Below, in pieces: positions 22,315-48,110 of a stretch of DNA of 64,000 nucleotides (positions are counted from its first letter, which is position 1; each line of letters starts with the position of its first letter). The stretch is taken from positions 3,717,398 to 3,781,397 of the forward strand of contig NZ_CP100461.1 in NCBI RefSeq assembly GCF_024228675.1, given 5' to 3'. The DNA comes from Salinigranum marinum. GTDB lineage: Archaea; Halobacteriota; Halobacteria; Halobacteriales; Haloferacaceae. The translations under genes were made by a program, and so were the position numbers. The notes beneath the pieces were generated by a model. It was not told the DNA's origin, ran no database searches, and saw only the letters and a list, made by a program, of their open reading frames with translations.

Positions 22315-24423
22315 ATGGCGCAGGCCCCGCAGAACCAGGAACTCACGGAGCGGTTCATCCAGTTCTACCGCAACTACTATCGCGACGAGATCGGGAGACT
22401 CGCCCAGCGGTACCCCAACGAGCAGCGCTCGCTGTACGTCGACTACGACGACCTGTACACGTTCGACCCCGACCTCGCCGAAGACTACCTCGCCAAGCCG
22501 GACCAACTCCAGCGGTACGCCCAGGAAGCCCTCCGCCTCTACGACCTCCCGGCCGACGTCAGCCTCGGTCAGGCGCACGTCCGCCTCCGGACCATCCCCG
22601 ACTCGATCGACATCCGCAACATCCGGGTCCACGACGACCACATCGGGAAACTCGTCTCCGTGCAGGGTATCGTCCGCAAGGCTACGGACGTCCGCCCGAA
22701 GATCACGGAGGCCGCCTTCGAGTGCCAGCGCTGTGGGACGATGACGTACATCCCCCAGCAGGACAGTGGCTTCCAGGAACCGCACGAGTGCCAGGGCTGT
22801 GAGCGACAGGGGCCATTCAGAGTGAACTTCGATCAGAGCGAGTTCGTCGACTCCCAGAAGATCCGGGTCCAGGAGTCGCCGGAGGACTTGCGAGGTGGAG
22901 AGACGCCACAGAGCATCGACATCAACATCGAGGACGACATCACGGGGAAGGTCACGGCGGGCGACCACGTCACGCTCAACGGGGTGCTCCACATCGAACA
23001 GCAGACGTCGAACAACGAGAAGACGCCCATCTTCGACCTCTACATGGACGGCGTCTCGATCACCATCGAGGACGAGGAGTTCGAGGACATGGAGATCACC
23101 GACGAGGACAAACAGGAGATCGTCGAACTCTCCTCGCACCCGGACATCTACGACGAGATGATCGCCTCCGTCGCCCCCTCGATCTACGGGTACGACCAGG
23201 AGAAGCTCGCGATGATCCTCCAGCTGTTCTCGGGCGTGACGAAACGCCTCCCCGACGGATCGCGGATCCGTGGCGACCTCCACATGCTTCTCATCGGTGA
23301 TCCTGGTACCGGAAAGAGTCAGCTCCTCTCGTACATCCGACATATCGCACCACGGTCGGTCTACACCTCCGGGAAAGGTTCGAGTGCGGCCGGGCTCACC
23401 GCTGCGGCCGTCCGCGACGACTTCGGTGACGGCCAGCAGTGGACGCTGGAGGCCGGTGCGCTCGTCCTCGCGGACAAGGGTATCGCGGCCGTCGACGAAC
23501 TCGACAAGATGAGATCGGAGGACCGGTCGGCCATGCACGAAGCGCTCGAACAGCAGTCGATCAGTATCAGCAAGGCCGGCATTAACGCCACGCTCAAATC
23601 GCGCTGTTCGCTTTTGGGCGCGGCGAACCCGAAGTACGGCCGGTTCGACCAGTACGAACCCATCGGCGAACAGATCGACCTCGAACCCGCGCTCATCTCG
23701 CGGTTCGACCTCATCTTCACGGTCACGGATCAGCCAGACCCCGAGAAAGACGGCGACCTCGCCGACCACATCCTCCAGACGAACTACGCGGGCGAACTGA
23801 ACACCCAGCGGACGCGGATGACGAACTCGAACTTCTCACAAGCGGAGGTCGACGCGGCCACCGAGGAGGTCGAACCGGCGATCGAACCCGACCTCCTCCG
23901 GAAGTACATCGCCCACGCCAAGCGTAACTGCTACCCGACGATGACCGACGAGGCACGGCGGGCGATCCGTGAGTTCTACGTCGACCTCCGGGCGAGAGGG
24001 GCCGACGAGGACGCGCCCGTCCCCGTGACGGCCCGGAAGCTAGAGGCGCTCGTCCGGCTCGCGGAGGCCTCGGCGCGAGTGCGGCTCTCCGACACCGTCG
24101 AGGCCGAGGACGCAGAACGCGTCATCGCGATCGTCCGCTCCTGTCTGGAGGCGATCGGCGTCGACCCCGAGACCGGGGAGTTCGACGCCGACGTCATCGA
24201 GACGGGCACCACGAAGACCCAGCGCGACCGCATCAAGAACCTCAAACACCTGATCTCGACGCTCGAAGACGAGTTCGAGGAGGGCGCGCCCGTCGACGAG
24301 GTGCTCGACCGCGCCGAGACCGAGTTGGGACTCGACCGCACGAAGGCGGAGGACGAGATCGAGAAACTCCGACGGAAGGGCGAGGTGTACGAGCCCCGGC
24401 AGGATCACCTCCGGACGACCTGA
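22315..24423 (+). CDS. mcm: Replicative DNA helicase MCM
   Basis: A 702-residue MCM. N-terminal domain with a zinc finger (CQRCGT ... ECQGCE, residues ~138-165) and the central AAA+ domain: Walker A GDPGTGKSQ, Walker B AAVDELDKM, sensor/arginine finger LISRFDLIF, then a C-terminal winged helix. It unwinds DNA at the replication fork as a hexamer. No intein is present, unlike some haloarchaeal mcm genes. The TATA-like GACTCTTTAG (about 22281-22290) is about 30 bases from the ATG. Confidence 0.97.
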   Translation: MAQAPQNQELTERFIQFYRNYYRDEIGRLAQRYPNEQRSLYVDYDDLYTFDPDLAEDYLAKPDQLQRYAQEALRLYDLPADVSLGQAHVRLRTIPDSIDIRNIRVHDDHIGKLVSVQGIVRKATDVRPKITEAAFECQRCGTMTYIPQQDSGFQEPHECQGCERQGPFRVNFDQSEFVDSQKIRVQESPEDLRGGETPQSIDINIEDDITGKVTAGDHVTLNGVLHIEQQTSNNEKTPIFDLYMDGVSITIEDEEFEDMEITDEDKQEIVELSSHPDIYDEMIASVAPSIYGYDQEKLAMILQLFSGVTKRLPDGSRIRGDLHMLLIGDPGTGKSQLLSYIRHIAPRSVYTSGKGSSAAGLTAAAVRDDFGDGQQWTLEAGALVLADKGIAAVDELDKMRSEDRSAMHEALEQQSISISKAGINATLKSRCSLLGAANPKYGRFDQYEPIGEQIDLEPALISRFDLIFTVTDQPDPEKDGDLADHILQTNYAGELNTQRTRMTNSNFSQAEVDAATEEVEPAIEPDLLRKYIAHAKRNCYPTMTDEARRAIREFYVDLRARGADEDAPVPVTARKLEALVRLAEASARVRLSDTVEAEDAERVIAIVRSCLEAIGVDPETGEFDADVIETGTTKTQRDRIKNLKHLISTLEDEFEEGAPVDEVLDRAETELGLDRTKAEDEIEKLRRKGEVYEPRQDHLRTT

Positions 24424-26819: not shown

Positions 26820-27110
26820 ATGGACCGCATCTCCGCCCTTCGGAACATCGAGGACGCGCTCAGGACGTTCGAGCAGGGCGAGGCCGACCTCGCGACGACG
26901 GAGCGACAGGTGGTGGCCGTGCTCAGGACGTACGCCACCGACTTCGAGGGTGAAACAGAACTGGCTGCCTACCGCGGCGGCGGCGACGACCGCGCCGAGG
27001 GACTGGTCGTCGTCGCCTCCTCGCCCGCCGAAGCCGAAGCGCGGGTCCGTGACCTCCTGGAGGTCGAGGACCCGACGGCGCTCGACGTCGTCGTCGACCG
27101 CATCGAGTGA
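26820..27110 (+). CDS. 96-aa uncharacterised haloarchaeal protein
   Basis: ATG at 26820. A soluble acidic protein: helical N-terminal half (RISALRNIEDALRTFEQGEADLATTERQVVAVLRTYATDF), then EGLVVVASSPAEAEARVRDLLEVEDPTALDVVVDRIE. It is the first gene of a plus-strand run leading into the MinD-like cassette (27217 onwards), 106 bases upstream of it. Function unknown. Confidence 0.68.
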   Translation: MDRISALRNIEDALRTFEQGEADLATTERQVVAVLRTYATDFEGETELAAYRGGGDDRAEGLVVVASSPAEAEARVRDLLEVEDPTALDVVVDRIE

Positions 27111-27216
27111 GGGCCAGGTGAGGGCCGGCTGAGTGTCGGACTAAGGATCGGTCTGAGTATCGACTGCGATACTCGGGCCGGGAGAGTTTTGATTCCCTCC
27201 GTCCATCCGCCGTGTA

Positions 27217-27555
27217 GTGTTGCTCGTGGTGACGTACTCGCGTGCGGCCCGCACGTCGCTCCGGAACGCCTGCCGAACCCACGACGAGACCGTCGTCAGG
27301 CGGTTCGGGCGCGCGGCCCTGCTCGACGACACCCACCACGGTGCATTCCTCGCGCTCCGTCTCGTGGAGAAACACGGGACGGACGTCCACGTCGAACTGA
27401 CCCGGCCGCTCAACGAGTTCGTCGACGTCCCGGACGCGGTCCGCGAGGCGGCCCGTGCGTACGAGACCCGCGAGTCGCCGAGCACGCCGTACCACGCGTT
27501 CGTCCGGGGGACGGATCACCCGTCACCGTCGACGCTCCGGGAGCGCGAGCTGTGA
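27217..27555 (+). CDS. 112-aa uncharacterised protein, first gene of MinD cassette
   Basis: GTG start at 27217 (MLLVVTYSRAARTSLRNACRTHDETVVRRFGRAALLD). Mixed alpha/beta character with the conserved-looking FLALRLVEKHGTDVHVELTRPLNEFVDVP. Its stop overlaps the start of the next gene by 4 bases (GTGA), giving translational coupling. The promoter region A/T stretch is GAGAGTTTTGATT at about 27182-27194. No domain recognised. Confidence 0.62.
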   Translation: MLLVVTYSRAARTSLRNACRTHDETVVRRFGRAALLDDTHHGAFLALRLVEKHGTDVHVELTRPLNEFVDVPDAVREAARAYETRESPSTPYHAFVRGTDHPSPSTLREREL

Positions 27556-28460
27556 GCTTCGTTCCGACGCGCGTCCCCGCGCCCGCACGCCGTCTCGGTA
27601 CGGTCGCCGTCACGATCGACGGCGTGTGTCGCCGGGGTCGTGCGCTCGATCTCCGCGGGGAAGGGCTCTCGCCCGAGACCGTCGTCGCCGCCGTCCGCGA
27701 GGCGTCGACGCCCGGCGCGACCGTCTCCCCGAGACCGCCCGTTCACGTCGACTGCGAGACGGCTGGCGTGGTCCACGCACACGTCTGCCGCATCCCACCG
27801 GAGACGTTCGATCTCCACGACGCGCTCGTCGCCGCGGCCCGGTCACACGACGTGGTCGCTCCCACTGTGCATCGGCTCGAACGCGCCCGTGCCGAACTCC
27901 AGGAGGTGGCGTACGAGCCGACCGACGTCGACCCGTCGCGGGCCAAACGGCGCGTCGCCGACGCGGAGCGGACGGAACGCCGCCTCAACGAGCGGGTGGC
28001 GGCCCTCCGCGGACGGCTGGACGCGCTCCGGGAGGTCGGTGCCGACGCGGACGGCGTCGAGGCCGAACTCGCCGAGGCCGTCGGCACGCTCACCGAGGTC
28101 GAGACCGACCGGATCGCCGCCGAGCAGCGCCTCGTCCAGCTCGAACGGGTCGCCCGGGTGGCGCGCGACAGACGACAGCGACGGCTCCGGCTCGCCGACC
28201 ACGTCGACAACTGCCGGCGACAGGTCCGCCGTGAACTCGTCGCGAGCGTCTACGACGACTTCGCCGCCGCCGTCGATGCGCTCCCCGGTGACGCCGATCC
28301 CGGCACGGAGCCGTCCGAGTACGCCGGTGACCGGACGACGGCGTCGCTCGCGGTCGCCTGTCTCGCCCGGCTTGACGCGCCGGTCGTCCTCGCCACCGAC
28401 CGTTTCGGTTCCCCCGCGGAGGCCGCGACCCGGCTCGACGCGCCGGTGCTTCGGCTCTGA
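27552..28460 (+). CDS. Uncharacterised coiled-coil protein of MinD cassette
   Basis: 302 residues from the GTG at 27552, which overlaps the preceding stop. An N-terminal globular ~110 residues is followed by a long charged coiled coil (about residues 105-205: RAKRRVADAERTERRLNERVAALRGRLDALREV...) and a C-terminal alpha/beta part (SLAVACLARLDAPVVLATDRF). The coil-with-caps design resembles scaffold or partition-type proteins, but no family is recognised. Cotranslated with its upstream neighbour. Confidence 0.65.
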   Translation: MSFVPTRVPAPARRLGTVAVTIDGVCRRGRALDLRGEGLSPETVVAAVREASTPGATVSPRPPVHVDCETAGVVHAHVCRIPPETFDLHDALVAAARSHDVVAPTVHRLERARAELQEVAYEPTDVDPSRAKRRVADAERTERRLNERVAALRGRLDALREVGADADGVEAELAEAVGTLTEVETDRIAAEQRLVQLERVARVARDRRQRRLRLADHVDNCRRQVRRELVASVYDDFAAAVDALPGDADPGTEPSEYAGDRTTASLAVACLARLDAPVVLATDRFGSPAEAATRLDAPVLRL

Positions 28461-28497
28461 CCGCCCGCCAGTTCATATACGGAGAGGCGGCCAGGGC

Positions 28498-29397
28498 GTG
28501 TATGCCCACGCCGCGACACCGGACGGAGCGTGTGATCGACCGACGGATCGAACGGGGGACCACGACCGCGACTGCGCCCACGACCACGACCGCGACCGTG
28601 GCTCGATCGGTTCTGGCGCGCTCGTGGTCGACTGGCACGTCTCCCGCGTGAACGAGACGACGCTCGTCACGGTTCGCGTGGAGAACACGCGCACGCACCC
28701 TCGGCGGGTCCGGATCGACAACCTGCTCGACGGGCCGGTCTCGCCCCCACGACGACGCGGGGTCGCCGAACGCGGCTGGGACGACGACGGGCTGACGTGC
28801 TCTCTCGCTGGCGGCGAGCGCATGTCGGTCGGCTACGCCTGCCGTGCCCCGCCGGCGCGGCCACCGATCTCCGTCCGAGACGACCCGGCGAACGAGGAGA
28901 CGACACCACCCGCCGTCGAACGCGCCCTCCGTTCGCTCGGCGACCACGCACCGCCGCGCGCCGCACTTCCCGACGACTCCGAGCGACGACCCGACCCCGA
29001 CCGACGCGACGGGCCCGTGCCCGCCGACACGGCCGACGGGGCCGACGCCGTCGAGTCGGCCGCCGACGAGCCCGGATCGAGTCCCGCCGCGAACGCCGGG
29101 ATCGACGAGGTGGAGTCCGCGGCGCACGGTGACCGCTCGCCGCCGTCCGTTCCGACGACGGTCGCCGCGTGGTTCGCTGCGGTCGAGGCCCGGCTCGAAA
29201 CCGCGGACCGGCTCGCCGGGGATCTCCGGGAGGCGACGCCGGTCGTCGCGTCGCTCGGTGGGCGGGCGGGCGTCGAGACGCTCGCAGCGACGCTCGACGA
29301 CGACTCGGCGGCGCTCCGTCGCGTCGCCGTACGCGCGACCGCGCTCGCCGACCGGGTCGACGAGACCGACGTCCCCGACGTGGGAGGGAACCAGTGA
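28498..29397 (+). CDS. Uncharacterised protein with beta-domain and disordered middle
   Basis: From the GTG at 28498, 299 residues; another in-frame GTG at 28624 (VDWHVSRVNETT) is equally possible and would remove a His/Asp-rich opening. An immunoglobulin-like beta segment (NETTLVTVRVENTRTHPRRVRIDNLLDGPV SPPRRRGV) is followed by a long Pro/Asp/Glu-rich disordered middle and a helical C-terminus (TVAAWFAAVEARLETADRLAGDL). Overlaps the MinD-like gene by 4 bases (GTGA). Confidence 0.6.
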   Translation: MYAHAATPDGACDRPTDRTGDHDRDCAHDHDRDRGSIGSGALVVDWHVSRVNETTLVTVRVENTRTHPRRVRIDNLLDGPVSPPRRRGVAERGWDDDGLTCSLAGGERMSVGYACRAPPARPPISVRDDPANEETTPPAVERALRSLGDHAPPRAALPDDSERRPDPDRRDGPVPADTADGADAVESAADEPGSSPAANAGIDEVESAAHGDRSPPSVPTTVAAWFAAVEARLETADRLAGDLREATPVVASLGGRAGVETLAATLDDDSAALRRVAVRATALADRVDETDVPDVGGNQ

Positions 29398-30101
29398 TCC
29401 TCGCCGTCGTGGGCGGGAAGGGCGGGGTCGGCAAGTCGACGCTCGCGTACAACGTCGGCGCGGCGCTGGATTCGCGCGAGTGGCGTCGCTCGGCAGCGTC
29501 CGCTTCCGGCGGGGCCGTCGTCGTCGACGCTGACCTCGGGATGGCGGACCTGCCGTTCGCGCGCGGACCGGACCTCCACGACGTGCTGGCCGGCCGCGCG
29601 TGTCCCGTCGAAGCGGTCCGCGAGGGACCGGTCCGTGTCCTCCCGTGCGGGCGCTCGCTCGCCGGCGCACGGGCGGCCGACCTCGGCCGTCTCGACGATG
29701 CCATCCGTGCCGTCGAACGGGAGTTCGGCGACGTCGTCGTCGACTGTCCGGCCGGGATGCGCGCCGACGCGGGCGTCCCGCTCGCCGTCGCCGACGCCTG
29801 CCTCCTCGTCGCTTCGCCGGCACCGTTCGCCGTGGCCGACGCGGTCCGGACGCGGGAACTCACCCGCGAACTCGACTGCGGGCTCGTCGGCGTCGCACTC
29901 AACCGCGCCGACGACGCCGACGCGAAGGCGGCCGAGACGTTCGAACGAATCCTCGGTGCCCCGGTCACGCGTGTTCCGACCGACGCGGCCCTCGGCCGAT
30001 CAGTCGAGACCGGGCAGCCAGTCGCCGTCGACTCCGACGGGGCTGTTGTCGACGCGCTCGATCGACTGGGCGACGCCGTCCGGGCCGCAAAACGAGTCTG
30101 A
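29394..30101 (+). CDS. MinD/ParA-like P-loop ATPase
   Basis: 235 residues with the deviant Walker A motif GGKGGVGKST at residues 7-16, both lysines present, then DADLGMADL and the DVVVDCPAG Walker B region. Such ATPases cycle on membranes or DNA to position cell machinery or cargo; a C-terminal MinD membrane helix is not obvious. It is the last gene of a cassette coupled by overlap to the coiled-coil and beta-domain genes, so those are its likely partners. GTG start overlaps the previous stop. Confidence 0.88.
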   Translation: MILAVVGGKGGVGKSTLAYNVGAALDSREWRRSAASASGGAVVVDADLGMADLPFARGPDLHDVLAGRACPVEAVREGPVRVLPCGRSLAGARAADLGRLDDAIRAVEREFGDVVVDCPAGMRADAGVPLAVADACLLVASPAPFAVADAVRTRELTRELDCGLVGVALNRADDADAKAAETFERILGAPVTRVPTDAALGRSVETGQPVAVDSDGAVVDALDRLGDAVRAAKRV

Positions 30102-30203
30102 GCTCCGCCGTCTTCTCTCTCACTTCCGGGTCGAGGCCCGTCGGTGGCGACGAGTCGCCTCCCGCGAGTCGACGCGGTGTCCGTCCGACCGCACGAACCG
30201 TGG

Positions 30204-31067
30204 TTACTCCTCGGACCGCAGGTCGGTGTAGGTGTTCCGAACGGTCACCGGCGTCACGTCGGCGACGTCGGCGGCGGTCGCCTGGGTGACGTCGCCACCG
30301 AGGTCGCACGAGGCGGTGTACAGGCAGGCGGCGGCGACGCCGCTCGGGTTCCGCCCCGACGCGACCCCCGTCTCGGTACAGCTGACGGCGTACTCGCGGG
30401 CTCGGCGCTCGGTCTCCGCGTCGACACCGAGCCGCGTGGCGTACCGCGGGATGTACTCGGCCGGATCGATCGGGCCGGTTGGGAGCCCGAGCTCGCGGTT
30501 CAGCGCGTCGTAGGCGGCCCGGAGTTCGCCCCGGTCCGCACGCGCCTCGGCGACGACTTCCTCAATGGTCCGCGAGACACCCTGGACGCGGCAGGCGGCG
30601 TACACCGCGGCGGCGAACCCCTCCAACGACCGTCTGCGGACGATGTCGGCGGACTGGGCGGATCTAAAGAGCGTCGACGCCATCTCGCAGATGTGCGTCG
30701 GGAGCGACAGCCCGGCCGTGACGCTCCGGATCTCGGTGAAGACGTACACCTGGTTCCGCTCGCGCTTGGTCGAGATCTGTGCCCGGTTGTGCTGGACGCG
30801 CATCCGTGCGAGCTGCCGACGCTTGCGCCCCTTGACCCGCGTCGACCGGCCGATCTCGGTCGAGAGCCCCCGGTCGTGGCGCGACCGCGTCAGCGGCGCG
30901 CCGGTCCGTTCGCGGGAGGGTCCGTCGGGGAACGACCGCCACTCTGGGCCGTGGTCGATGTGGTCCGCGGACACGACGAGACCGCACTCCGCACACACCG
31001 TCTCGCTCGCGTCCGTGTTCAGTCGTCCGTCGCATTCGGGACAGCCGGTCTGGGTCACCGTGCTCAT
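30204..31067 (-). CDS. tfb: Transcription initiation factor TFB
   Basis: 287 residues: N-terminal zinc ribbon (C9-x2-C12, C25-x2-C28), a B-finger/linker region and two cyclin folds (HICEMASTLFRSAQSADIVRRRSLEGFAAAVYAACR and the C-terminal repeat SGRNPSGVAAACLYTASCDLGGDVTQATAADVADVTPVTVRNTYTDL). TFB recruits RNA polymerase to TBP-bound promoters; haloarchaea carry several paralogs with different target sets. It sits between the MinD cassette and a divergent HTH-like gene. Slightly shorter than typical TFBs (~300-320). Confidence 0.92.
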   Translation of the reverse strand: MSTVTQTGCPECDGRLNTDASETVCAECGLVVSADHIDHGPEWRSFPDGPSRERTGAPLTRSRHDRGLSTEIGRSTRVKGRKRRQLARMRVQHNRAQISTKRERNQVYVFTEIRSVTAGLSLPTHICEMASTLFRSAQSADIVRRRSLEGFAAAVYAACRVQGVSRTIEEVVAEARADRGELRAAYDALNRELGLPTGPIDPAEYIPRYATRLGVDAETERRAREYAVSCTETGVASGRNPSGVAAACLYTASCDLGGDVTQATAADVADVTPVTVRNTYTDLRSEE

Positions 31068-31191
31068 ACTCGAAACTCGGTCCCGATCGGATACTTAAAC
31101 ACGTGAGGAACACGGCGCTGATGCCCTCTGCGCGCCGATCGAACGTACCGGTAACCGATACGTACCGCATTCGAAGACTGTCCCTCGCACG

Positions 31192-31203
31192 ACTATTTAT
31201 TAG
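31192..31203 (+). promoter_or_regulatory. TATA element of the gene at 31226
   Basis: ACTATTTATTAG, 23-34 bases upstream of the ATG at 31226, in a 158-base divergent region with tfb. Placement fits a leaderless transcript. Confidence 0.6.
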
Positions 31204-31225
31204 CCGGGCCGTCGGACAAACTCAC

Positions 31226-31741
31226 ATGGCTCTGTCGGACATCGCGGCCGGCATCGAGGTCACCACAGCGCAACGCGACCGTGGTGTCCCGACCGTCGAC
31301 GGGACGGACACCGACCTCGAAGACCGGCTCGCGGCCCACGCGGAGCGGCTTCCGTGCTCGCCGTCGGCCGCGGCAACCGTCCTCGAAACGTACACGCGCG
31401 GGGTGCGCGTCGGCGCGGCCGCCCGCCGTGCTGACGTCGCCCCGATGACCGCCGCGAAGACGCTTCACCTCTGCGGCGAGTCGGGTCTCTCACCTCTCGG
31501 CCCGACGGCCCGACGGATCGTCCGCGACTGGCTCGCGGGCGAGCTCTCCCGCGCCGACGCCGTCGCGCTCACGGGTGCCGACGCGACCGAGTTCGCACTC
31601 GCGGCCTACCTGGAATCGCACGATCCCGTTCCCACCCTCGTCGAGGCCGCCGAGGCGGCCCTCACCCCCCAGCGGAACGCGAGCGTCACGAAACGCGAAA
31701 CGCTCGCCGAGACGATGACCGACGCGGCCGACTTCGTCTGA
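31226..31741 (+). CDS. Uncharacterised helical, HTH-like protein
   Basis: 171 residues. The central region (SPSAAATVLETYTRGVRVGAAARRADVAPMTAAKTLHLCGE) reads as tandem short helices with helix-turn-helix-like spacing. No metal or catalytic motif. Divergent from tfb with its own TATA box. Possibly a DNA-binding partner of this block; that is inference. Confidence 0.6.
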   Translation: MALSDIAAGIEVTTAQRDRGVPTVDGTDTDLEDRLAAHAERLPCSPSAAATVLETYTRGVRVGAAARRADVAPMTAAKTLHLCGESGLSPLGPTARRIVRDWLAGELSRADAVALTGADATEFALAAYLESHDPVPTLVEAAEAALTPQRNASVTKRETLAETMTDAADFV

Positions 31742-31795
31742 ACCGGTCGGCGTCGGCCCCTCCGCCGGGGAGCAACGCGGCTCGGTGGCGGCTCG

Positions 31796-32533
31796 TTACT
31801 GCCGACGGAACACCTCGCCGACGCCACCGAGGAGTCCGTTCGATTCGCCCACGGCGGCCACGTCACGCTCGACGAGTTCGGCGACGAGCCTCTCGATCGC
31901 GCGCCCGTACCGCTCGTCCGTGAGACAGCCCGGGACGGTCGTCTCCGTCTCCGGAAGCACCACGTCGGCGGCTCCCGACTCGTCGGTGCCGCCCGTCGCC
32001 ACGAGGAGGTCCGCCGCCGTCCCGAGATCCGCCAGTCGCTCGCGGAGGCGAGCCGTCGCGTCCACCCCGCGGTCGCCGACCGGCGCGACCGCCCCGACCC
32101 GCTCGCAGGTCGTGGCCGCGGCCACCGCCTGGTTCGCCGCGATCGGCGGCACGTCGACGAGCACGTGGTCGAACGTCGCGGTGGCCTCTTCGATCCGTCC
32201 CTCGAAGCGACGGGCGGCCTCGACGCGTTTCGCCCGGGCCAGTCGCTCGAAGGGTGCGTCGACGGGACAGCACGTGACCCGTCCGTCGGTTCCCGCGTCG
32301 AGGTCGGCCAGTCCGGTCGAGAGCGACTCCTCGGCACGGTCCGTCACGAGAGCCGTGAGATCCGGGTCGATCCGCCCCGGGAGGTAGTCCCCGAGCCCCT
32401 GCGTCGCGTACGCGGCGTCGAGAACCGCCACGTCGGCCCCGTCGGCCGCGAGCGCGACGGCGACTTCGAGGGTTGTTCTGGTGGTTCCCACGCCGCCGGC
32501 CACGCCGACGAGTGCCGCCGTCGTGTACGTCAT
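31796..32533 (-). CDS. MinD-like ATPase homolog lacking the Walker A lysine
   Basis: 245 residues with clear MinD/ParA architecture: N-terminal LVGVAGGVGTTRTTLEVAVALAA, then VLDAAYATQGLGDYLPGR (switch region) and FDHVLVDVPPIAAN. In the P-loop the catalytic lysine position of GGxGKT is occupied by threonine (GGVGTTRTT), so ordinary ATP hydrolysis is doubtful. Similar variants occur in other haloarchaeal proteins to my knowledge. Located convergent with the HTH-like gene; start ATG at 32533. Confidence 0.8.
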   Translation of the reverse strand: MTYTTAALVGVAGGVGTTRTTLEVAVALAADGADVAVLDAAYATQGLGDYLPGRIDPDLTALVTDRAEESLSTGLADLDAGTDGRVTCCPVDAPFERLARAKRVEAARRFEGRIEEATATFDHVLVDVPPIAANQAVAAATTCERVGAVAPVGDRGVDATARLRERLADLGTAADLLVATGGTDESGAADVVLPETETTVPGCLTDERYGRAIERLVAELVERDVAAVGESNGLLGGVGEVFRRQ

Positions 32534-42857: not shown

Positions 42858-43280
42858 CTACTCGGTCGCGCCGCGGATGTCGGCCGCGATCGCGTCCAGT
42901 TCCGCGTCCGACAGCGACGGCCGCGTGGAAAACAGTCGGTGGATCGGGCCGTTCCCGTCGCCGTCGAACCGTGGGACGACGTGGACGTGCGTGTGCGGGA
43001 CCTCCTGGCCCGCCGCCTCGCCGTTGTTCACCGCGACGGTGGTCCCGTCGGCGTCGATCGCCCGCTCGATGCGGGGCGTGACGGCGCTCACCGTCTCGAA
43101 GAGAGCACCGGCGGTCTCCGGGGGGAGCTCGCCGACCGTCTCGTAGTGCTCGCTGGGGACGACGAGCGTGTGGCCCGCGGCGAGCGGGTTGGCGTCGAGG
43201 AACGCGACGGCGTCGTCGGTCTCGTACACCGTTCGACTCGGTAGGTCGCCGTCGACGATGCGGCAGAAGATACAGCTCAT
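42858..43280 (-). CDS. HIT family nucleotide hydrolase
   Basis: 140 residues with the histidine triad H96-T-H98-V-H100 (HTHVHVV), N-terminal CIFCRIVDGDLPS with a CxxC pair, and VPSEHYETV. HIT proteins hydrolyse nucleoside phosphoramidates or diadenosine polyphosphates. ATG at 43280 (MSCIFC) gives the normal start; the upstream ATG at 43304 would add 8 residues. Confidence 0.92.
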   Translation of the reverse strand: MSCIFCRIVDGDLPSRTVYETDDAVAFLDANPLAAGHTLVVPSEHYETVGELPPETAGALFETVSAVTPRIERAIDADGTTVAVNNGEAAGQEVPHTHVHVVPRFDGDGNGPIHRLFSTRPSLSDAELDAIAADIRGATE

Positions 43281-43377
43281 GTTCGGTTCGAAGGCCGTGG
43301 GCATGGCCGAAAAATCTCCCGCCGGCCGAGGCGTCCGATCGCCAGATGTCGCGGCGGCCGGGGCCCGACTGACGTCC

Positions 43378-43653
43378 TCAGGGACGCGTCGTGTCGGCGC
43401 GCGCGGTCAGGCTCTCGGTCGTCTCCGTCCACCACTGGTCGAGCGCGTCCTTCAGACGGCTGGAACGCGTGCCGCTGAACGGGTCGGGGCTCTCCGTTGT
43501 CGTGTCCGCTCCCGTGTCGGCAGTCTCGCCCTCCGCGTCAGCGCTCGTGCGGGGGGCCTCCCGTTCGGAGACGGCGACGACGTGGTCGGACCGGTCGGCA
43601 GACGGTTCGGCGGCGGGTTCTGGGTCGAGTCGTCCGCTCCCATCGTGGGGCAT
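43378..43653 (-). CDS. Uncharacterised protein sharing an upstream 27-base element
   Basis: 91 residues: an acidic disordered N-terminal two-thirds (EGETADTGADTTTESPDPF) and a helical tail (RSSRLKDALDQWWTETTESL). No known domain. Its ATG (43653) lies 25 bases downstream of the 27-base repeat (43679-43705, minus orientation), the same spacing as in the gene at 44571; the two are probably co-regulated. Confidence 0.6.
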   Translation of the reverse strand: MPHDGSGRLDPEPAAEPSADRSDHVVAVSEREAPRTSADAEGETADTGADTTTESPDPFSGTRSSRLKDALDQWWTETTESLTARADTTRP

Positions 43654-47474: not shown

Positions 47475-48107
47475 TCAGCCATCGACGAGCGACGCGAGCG
47501 TCGTGCTGATCTCGTCCTCGTACTCCTCGGGGGTGTACCCCTGCCGCGCGATCCACACGTCCTGGTAGGAGGGATGAAAGACCGGCAGGAGGGATACGCC
47601 GAGCGACGGGAGCCGTTCGGGCGTGAGGACGCGCGCGACGAACCCACCCAGGTCGCGCCCCTCGAACGCCAGCATCGTCGCCGTGGCGTGTTTTCCCGTG
47701 GGGACGACCACGTCGGGATCGACCCCGTCGACTTCCCGTTCGAGGTGTGCCCGGCAGTTCGCTCGCTCTCGGGCCGTCGGTTCACGGTTCGACCCCTCGC
47801 CGTCGCCGGGAAAACACTTGACCGCGTTCGTGTAGTACGGGTCGTAGCCCAGGCGGGCGAACAGCCCTCTGATCCGACGGCCCGAGTGGCGGGTCGTGTA
47901 CGCCATCCCCGTGTGGTTGCCGCCCCGCCACCGCTCCGCGGTTCGGTCGCCCGCCCCGGGGGCCTCGCCGACGACCATCACGGCCGCGTCCGCGGGACCG
48001 GTGCCCCACGAGATCTCGGTTCGACAGGCCGCGAGCGCCGGACACCGGCGGCAGTCGGGTTCGACGACGGCTCGTGTCTCGGGGTCGGGAAACAGCGAAT
48101 CCGGCAC
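47475..48107 (-). CDS. udg: Uracil-DNA glycosylase (family 4/5 type)
   Basis: 210 residues with the GEAPGAGD motif (residues ~47-54), CFPGDGEGSNREPTARE, and the HPS-type VFHPSYQDV. Cysteines C19, C22 and C28 plus C98 are placed as in iron-sulfur uracil-DNA glycosylases of families 4 and 5. It removes uracil from DNA to start base-excision repair. A small membrane-protein gene precedes it by 3 bases on the same strand, so they are probably cotranscribed. Confidence 0.92.
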   Translation of the reverse strand: MPDSLFPDPETRAVVEPDCRRCPALAACRTEISWGTGPADAAVMVVGEAPGAGDRTAERWRGGNHTGMAYTTRHSGRRIRGLFARLGYDPYYTNAVKCFPGDGEGSNREPTARERANCRAHLEREVDGVDPDVVVPTGKHATATMLAFEGRDLGGFVARVLTPERLPSLGVSLLPVFHPSYQDVWIARQGYTPEEYEDEISTTLASLVDG

Positions 48108-48110
48108 CGT

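Follow-up and report, generated by a model that had tools for sequence, protein, structure and literature searches.

Gene content of the block beside mcm

We analyzed a 64 kb window from the haloarchaeon Salinigranum marinum (contig NZ_CP100461.1; all coordinates refer to this window), which carries a block of eight genes beside mcm, among them genes for a MinD-like ATPase, a transcription factor B (TFB) paralogue, and a helix-turn-helix (HTH)-like protein of the family DUF7858. The analysis centers on the intergenic region between the TFB gene (tfb) and the DUF7858 gene, which holds a conserved palindrome that was absent from a preliminary description of this DNA. That description listed the eight open reading frames, all of which we confirmed at their coordinates with clean translations, and seven of the eight proteins matched Pfam families above cut-off.

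The replicative helicase gene mcm, taken from the open reading frame list (22315..24423, plus strand), anchors the neighborhood. On the same strand follow genes for a DUF7854 protein of 96 residues (26820..27110; PF25252, E 4.6e-38), a DUF7855 protein of 112 residues (27217..27555; PF25253), the coiled-coil DUF7856 protein of 302 residues (27552..28460; PF25254), a DUF7857 protein of 299 residues that we treat as the MinD partner (28498..29397; PF25256), and the MinD-like ATPase (29394..30101; CbiA/ParA-type Pfam match). The DUF7856 start lies inside the DUF7855 stop, and DUF7857 overlaps the MinD gene by four bases; both four-base overlaps (27552/27555 and 29394/29397) had been pointed out before, and both are real and conserved among loci. 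The TFB paralogue (30204..31067, minus strand; Pfam TFIIB), with a zinc ribbon and two TFIIB repeats, reads toward MinD; DUF7858 (171 residues; 31226..31741, plus strand; PF25257) diverges from it; and ATP2, a weak MinD/MipZ/BcsQ relative whose P-loop (GVAGGVGTTR) has no Walker A lysine (31796..32533, minus strand), runs against DUF7858. With these orientations the block is not a single transcription unit; judged from strand alone, it has at least four. Between tfb and DUF7858 lie the tfb TATA box TTTAAGTA (31092..31099, minus strand), the 23-bp palindrome AACGTACCGGTAACCGATACGTA, a putative operator recognized by sequence comparison (31142..31164), and the probable TATA box of DUF7858, TATTTATTA (31194..31202, plus strand). 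Further along the window, HIT-like and uracil-DNA-glycosylase (UDG)-like genes (42861–43406 and 47478–48110, both minus strand) lie 10–15 kb from ATP2; they directly adjoin ATP2 in most Haloferacaceae but are distant here, and the window is therefore rearranged downstream of ATP2.

Among 19 aligned relatives, the MinD-like protein kept KGGVGK[ST] in 18 and the VVVDADL and VVVDCPAG motifs in nearly all, so that its deviant Walker A, switch I, and Walker B motifs are all complete. It matched the archaeal MinD structure 1hyq (E 3e-37), and its best NCBIfam match, minD_arch, scored 123 bits, short of the 201.75 cut-off, which places it outside that curated subfamily by score. By eye, the MinD C termini stop a few residues past the fold, with no obvious amphipathic membrane-targeting extension. 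In one Halocatena pleomorpha locus (L094, 8331–8981), the MinD P-loop is destroyed (GRPSWERS) and DUF7857 is gone. The absence of the Walker A lysine from ATP2, already noticed in the preliminary description, is a conserved trait, as the P-loop reads GGxGxTR in all 19 aligned relatives; ATP2 matched solved structures weakly and in a general way, and its sequence suggests a MinD-fold relative that is probably not an active ATPase. An altered P-loop in a MinD-like fold is also a feature of TadZ/CpaE-type MinD-like proteins, from which ATP2 differs in having no pilus genes beside it. The block TFB matched PF08271 and two PF00382 stretches above cut-off and, like the alternative haloarchaeal TFBs, is a divergent paralogue with intact zinc ribbon and repeats; the genome of the window has two dozen TFIIB-repeat matches and several TFB paralogues.

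The genes at 26820, 27217, 27552, and 28498, earlier presented as uncharacterized, are indeed so, but they belong to families already named as DUFs and conserved throughout Halobacteria. Sequence searches of DUF7854, DUF7855, DUF7857, and DUF7858 against solved structures gave nothing meaningful, and that of DUF7856 gave coiled-coil matches only. An AlphaFold2 model of DUF7856 (mean predicted local distance difference test score, pLDDT, of 93) placed long helices at 129–162 and 167–243 between small N- and C-terminal parts. Its Foldseek matches included SMC/RecN heads (E 0.02–0.08) with low TM-scores, which we found unconvincing, as a coiled coil by itself could produce them. The DUF7855 model (mean pLDDT 77) suggests a ferredoxin-like order of elements and had no significant match in Foldseek.

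Gene order and co-inheritance in Halobacteria

We collected 80 named loci through DUF7858. Their usual order, MCM-DUF7854-DUF7855-DUF7856-DUF7857-MinD-TFB(-)-DUF7858-ATP2(-), with MCM upstream of the block in most, spans Haloferax to Haladaptatus, Halorussus, Halobellus, and Haloarchaeobius, and the divergent TFB-DUF7858 pair was present in 79 of the 80. Conservation of gene order, proposed in the preliminary description as a check, was thus borne out, and the comparison indicates that the block is an ancestral haloarchaeal neighborhood beside mcm. A start giving the four-base overlap was available at the DUF7857/MinD junction in 57 of 58 loci and at the DUF7855/DUF7856 junction in 48 of 60, counts that are upper bounds, as this overlap was preferred where several starts were possible. 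Haloarcula-type loci have no ATP2 at the site, and the g25 genomes carry it elsewhere, beside HIT; Actinarchaeum, Halobacteriales YIM A00013, and Halocatena marina show the block order without MinD and DUF7857; and in Halorubrum, Halopenitus, Halostella, and Halovenus loci TFB-DUF7858 is separate from DUF7854-MinD. No DUF7858 was found in the plasmid collection, and the phylum sample held a single, sub-cut-off match to DUF7856 outside the class Halobacteria. The downstream HIT, UDG, and PRPP-synthase genes are conserved neighbors too. Many lineages have a KaiC-like gene between DUF7854 and DUF7855 (L071:5720-6406, L081:5583-6278) that is not in the window, and in the Haloarcula/Halomicroarcula loci L102, L112, L113, and L119 glutamate-cysteine-ligase-like and PHA-synthase-like genes adjoin DUF7858.

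Phyletic profiles were built from presence and absence in one set of 145 Halobacteria genomes. DUF7858 was found in 90 of them, DUF7856 in 89, DUF7854 in 90, DUF7855 in 93, and ATP2 in 90; MinD1 (the block MinD; see below) was found in 102, DUF7857 in 105, and TFB in 134. Pairwise phi was 0.90–0.99 within the first five genes, which we call the core, 0.92 for MinD and DUF7857 (found together in 101 genomes), 0.55–0.66 between these two groups, and 0.15–0.31 for the core versus TFB, all values that kinship of the genomes inflates, the counts not being independent. Sequence comparison shows that the core is kept or lost as a unit and that DUF7857 goes with MinD in a pair of its own, co-inherited and translationally coupled; MinD is absent from some core-bearing genomes, and about 20 genomes hold MinD without the core. 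A coupling of the MinD-type ATPase to the coiled-coil protein had been suggested from the window; DUF7856 does belong to a co-inherited core, but MinD is inherited with DUF7857 instead. TFB had in turn been proposed as the dedicated transcription factor of the block, which we reject because TFB is far more widespread than the core, with 46 genomes retaining TFB without DUF7858.

Losses of the core in g5, g10, g22, and g47, genera that also have core-bearing species, were separate events, and the core is missing from family f4 (probably Natrialbaceae) and several scattered genera. Partial remnants remain in G100, G056, G125, G012, G054, and G124, and in G057 and G087 MCM-DUF7857-MinD-TFB persists without the core. 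In G100 (locus L138), a natural deletion fuses the first half of DUF7856 in an open frame to the end of DUF7858; it removed DUF7857, MinD, and TFB, and ATP2 was retained.

In Haloferax volcanii, MCM is HVO_0220 (PMC3972481), MinD1 is HVO_0225 (PMC11621097, PMC11588486), and HVO_0226 is a TFB (PMC7714728, PMC13286277). The order of the Haloferax loci agrees with the order of these locus tags, and on the basis of this order, rather than of an annotated H. volcanii record, the block MinD is probably the orthologue of MinD1/HVO_0225, with which it shares the neighborhood and a MinD fold with deviant Walker A, and the block TFB is probably the orthologue of HVO_0226. All five DUFs were detected in H. 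volcanii, our control genome. The MinD papers give no partner, phenotype, or function for MinD1 (PMC11588486, PMC11621097). HVO_0221, HVO_0222, HVO_0223, HVO_0224, HVO_0227, and HVO_0228 had no mention in the main texts searched, and we did not find the DUF7857 pairing, the core, or the operator described in the open-access main texts searched.

The palindrome at the tfb promoter

The TFB-DUF7858 intergenic region bears the palindrome AACSTACCGGTNACCGGTASGTT. Among 77 named loci, its core of 12 positions had no mismatch in 44, one in 27, two in 3, three in 2, and four in 1, so that 76 of 77 loci had at most three mismatches and 71 of 77 at most one; in a shuffle control, 15 of 1540 shuffles came within two mismatches. 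The site at 31142–31164 is the sole match with one mismatch in the window. When we scanned 31 genomes, the best genomic site stood at the tfb promoter in all 11 that bear the gene core, and further sites sat at the three-mismatch level, which a reversed control matched; by this comparison there is one good palindrome per genome. G029 has another strong-scoring palindrome away from tfb, but it falls within a methionine-synthase-like coding gene, and we took it as chance. Between the palindrome and the tfb TATA box downstream of it there are 42 bp, about four helical turns; TTTAAATA stood at exactly 42 bp in 61 of 77 loci if up to two mismatches are allowed, and 35 of the 77 had it there without mismatch, and the spacing to the TATA box on the DUF7858 side was less strictly conserved than that on the tfb side. 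No instance of the palindrome core in archaeal papers was found in the literature searched. A second conserved stretch follows the TATA box, ahead of the tfb start (about 31068–31090), with the consensus TCGGGnCCnA followed by TTTCAA and TGATGA; it may be an initiator or the site of another regulator.

We then compared the 1 kb surrounding the start of tfb between 46 genomes that have TFB without DUF7858 and 14 that have both. The palindrome was present in 14 of 14 genomes with DUF7858 (scores 15.6–38.8), not all of them independent, as some share species with the training loci (at least G053 and G117). Without DUF7858, 45 of 46 genomes were at background (score at most -2.5), and the maximum score in shuffles was 2.3. 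G137, which lacks DUF7858 and keeps MCM-DUF7855-DUF7857-MinD-TFB, had a relic palindrome (score 10.4) in the correct place, with a TATA-like box at 42. These comparisons show the palindrome to be present with DUF7858 and lost or decayed where DUF7858 was lost but TFB kept. In four genomes where DUF7858 is remote from tfb, the site was still at tfb (G129, 27.8; G037, 26.0; G142, 30.1; G049, 14.2). G129 and G037 are clean separations, both with a TATA box at 42, and no palindrome was found at the remote DUF7858 genes of G129, G037, and G049. The palindrome thus remains at tfb when DUF7858 lies elsewhere in the genome, as shown by these site comparisons.

A putative DUF7858 switch on tfb and its alternatives

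The reading that we consider reasonably probable is one in which DUF7858 is a switch on tfb, the rest of the core gates this switch, and the MinD1–DUF7857 pair feeds in. As an HTH protein, DUF7858 would bind the palindrome in dimeric form and act in trans, probably as an activator of tfb and, in many cases, of the divergent DUF7858 gene as well. Activation is favored over repression because the site lies upstream of the B recognition element (BRE)/TATA box at a fixed helical phase, four turns away. The other core proteins, the coiled-coil DUF7856 and the degenerate-site ATP2 among them, would most likely gate or sense for the switch, and MinD1–DUF7857 would be an accessory ATPase–partner pair acting on the same pathway. 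The pathway would set how much of one TFB paralogue is present and, through it, act on the promoters which that TFB prefers. The idea that this TFB serves the block is not supported; more probably, the block, or at least DUF7858, serves tfb. In favor of such a switch, HVO_0226 is reported among the genes that are up in the csmR and cirA deletions of H. volcanii (PMC13286277), and DUF7858 is the only core protein known here with recurrent HTH matches (HTH_28 in 7 of 20 members, also LacI, HTH_7, and HTH_23; best E 0.0044). A relay in which the MinD-type pair and a degenerate-site MinD relative gate a dedicated DNA-binding activator of one TFB gene strikes us as rather unlikely; if true, it would run from cell organization to transcription, its output being a general initiation factor, and it would be analogous, not homologous, to FlhG–FleQ.

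By sequence comparison, the regulatory association itself is real, conserved, and apparently undescribed, in families that are known but uncharacterized. The genes are known singly, and what appears new is the putative circuit of palindrome, DUF7858, and tfb. Haloarchaea hold many TFB paralogues; here one tfb has a single phase-locked putative operator, the presence of which tracks one HTH-like protein across an archaeal class. In the literature searched, we found no tfb gene described as having a co-inherited regulator and an operator of its own. MinD1, an orphan in published work, gains in DUF7857 a strictly co-inherited partner.

Several observations weigh against a DUF7858 switch. The HTH matches of DUF7858 are all below the Pfam cut-offs, and because all core genes co-vary, the profile alone cannot single it out as the binder. 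The palindrome and DUF7858 are mostly neighbors, so that a single deletion may account for some of the co-losses; the two are apart only in G129, G037, G142, and G049, of which G142 has its DUF7858 only about 5 kb off and with an internal stop, and G049 has a weak site. G018 has a divergent DUF7858 (180 bits) yet no recognizable site; this exception belongs to an apparently degraded lineage. Kinship, as stated for phi, counts here as well, and we infer the place of MinD, ATP2, and DUF7854 to DUF7856 in the pathway from co-inheritance alone.

We weighed the switch against readings in which the MinD-like ATPase leads. As an ATPase–adaptor pair, MinD1–DUF7857 might place a cargo, perhaps through DUF7856, the TFB link being incidental; we regard this as possible but unlikely. 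It would suit the complete ATPase motifs of MinD, its strict pairing and co-translation with DUF7857, the recurrence of the pair beside TrkA-like membrane proteins and GLUG/CARDB surface proteins in another cluster, and the effects that MinD2 and MinD4 have in H. volcanii on motility and on the motility machinery (PMC11588486, PMC11621097). An H. volcanii strain lacking all four minD genes, however, showed no division or growth phenotype, and its motility was no worse than with minD2/minD4 alone deleted, so that MinD1 adds no motility defect (PMC11588486, PMC11621097). Judged by eye, MinD also has no obvious C-terminal helix of the membrane-targeting kind. It is missing from the core-bearing loci of Actinarchaeum and Halocatena marina, and nothing found in this analysis identified a cargo. 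A link of the core to the archaellum was rejected: PF04659 was present in many core-minus genomes (G109, G012, G067, G066, G068, G075, G124, G002, G028, G043, G116, G050, and G140) and absent from core-plus G070. MinD1, with DUF7857 or ATP2, could instead be an ATP-dependent anti- or co-activator of DUF7858 or TFB after the manner of FlhG/FleN, coupling cell state to TFB-directed transcription, which we think improbable. The structures of FlhG and FleN score better against the MinD1 profile (E about 2e-17 and 2e-16) than E. coli MinD does (5e-11), a MinD-family gene sits beside a transcription factor gene in both settings, MinD1 and TFB are adjacent and convergent in most loci, and they stay together in the core-free arrangement of G057 and G087. 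Against this, archaeal MinDs score best and closer than FlhG, and adjacency may just be ancestral order; the block has no FlhF- or FleQ-type gene, the factor encoded next to MinD1 is a TFB, and the presence of archaellum genes does not follow that of the core.

The behavior of the palindrome and of the core bears on two further readings. ATP2 as a ParA relative, DUF7858 as a centromere binder, and a parS-like palindrome would make a ParABS- or SegAB-like partition system, with which the block shares a ParA/MinD-fold protein, an HTH-like protein, and one good palindrome per genome; but ATP2 has no catalytic lysine in any of the 19 aligned relatives, and the site is a promoter element phase-locked to the tfb TATA box that stays with tfb and does not travel with DUF7858 or ATP2, making partition highly improbable. 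Independent genes near mcm by chance, lost through block deletions, would explain why the losses in G100, G056, and G125 resemble local deletions and why HIT, UDG, and PRPP-synthase are conserved neighbors. Core genes are nevertheless co-present where unlinked (g2, g33, and f10 genomes; ATP2 in g25), and HIT persists in G012, which lost the core; we consider a mere ancestral neighborhood quite improbable.

A second DUF7857–MinD cluster occurs at L135, L137, L147, L148, and L149 (G005, G116, G077, G050, and G141:C2). Because the pair recurs there with a TFB, the link of MinD1–DUF7857 with TFB genes may extend beyond this block. In several of these clusters, a short DUF7857 and MinD are accompanied by a TFB, a fusion of MinD to KaiC (about 435 residues), two TrkA-like membrane proteins, and a large GLUG/CARDB surface protein; in L137, a PilC-like gene lies near the TFB.

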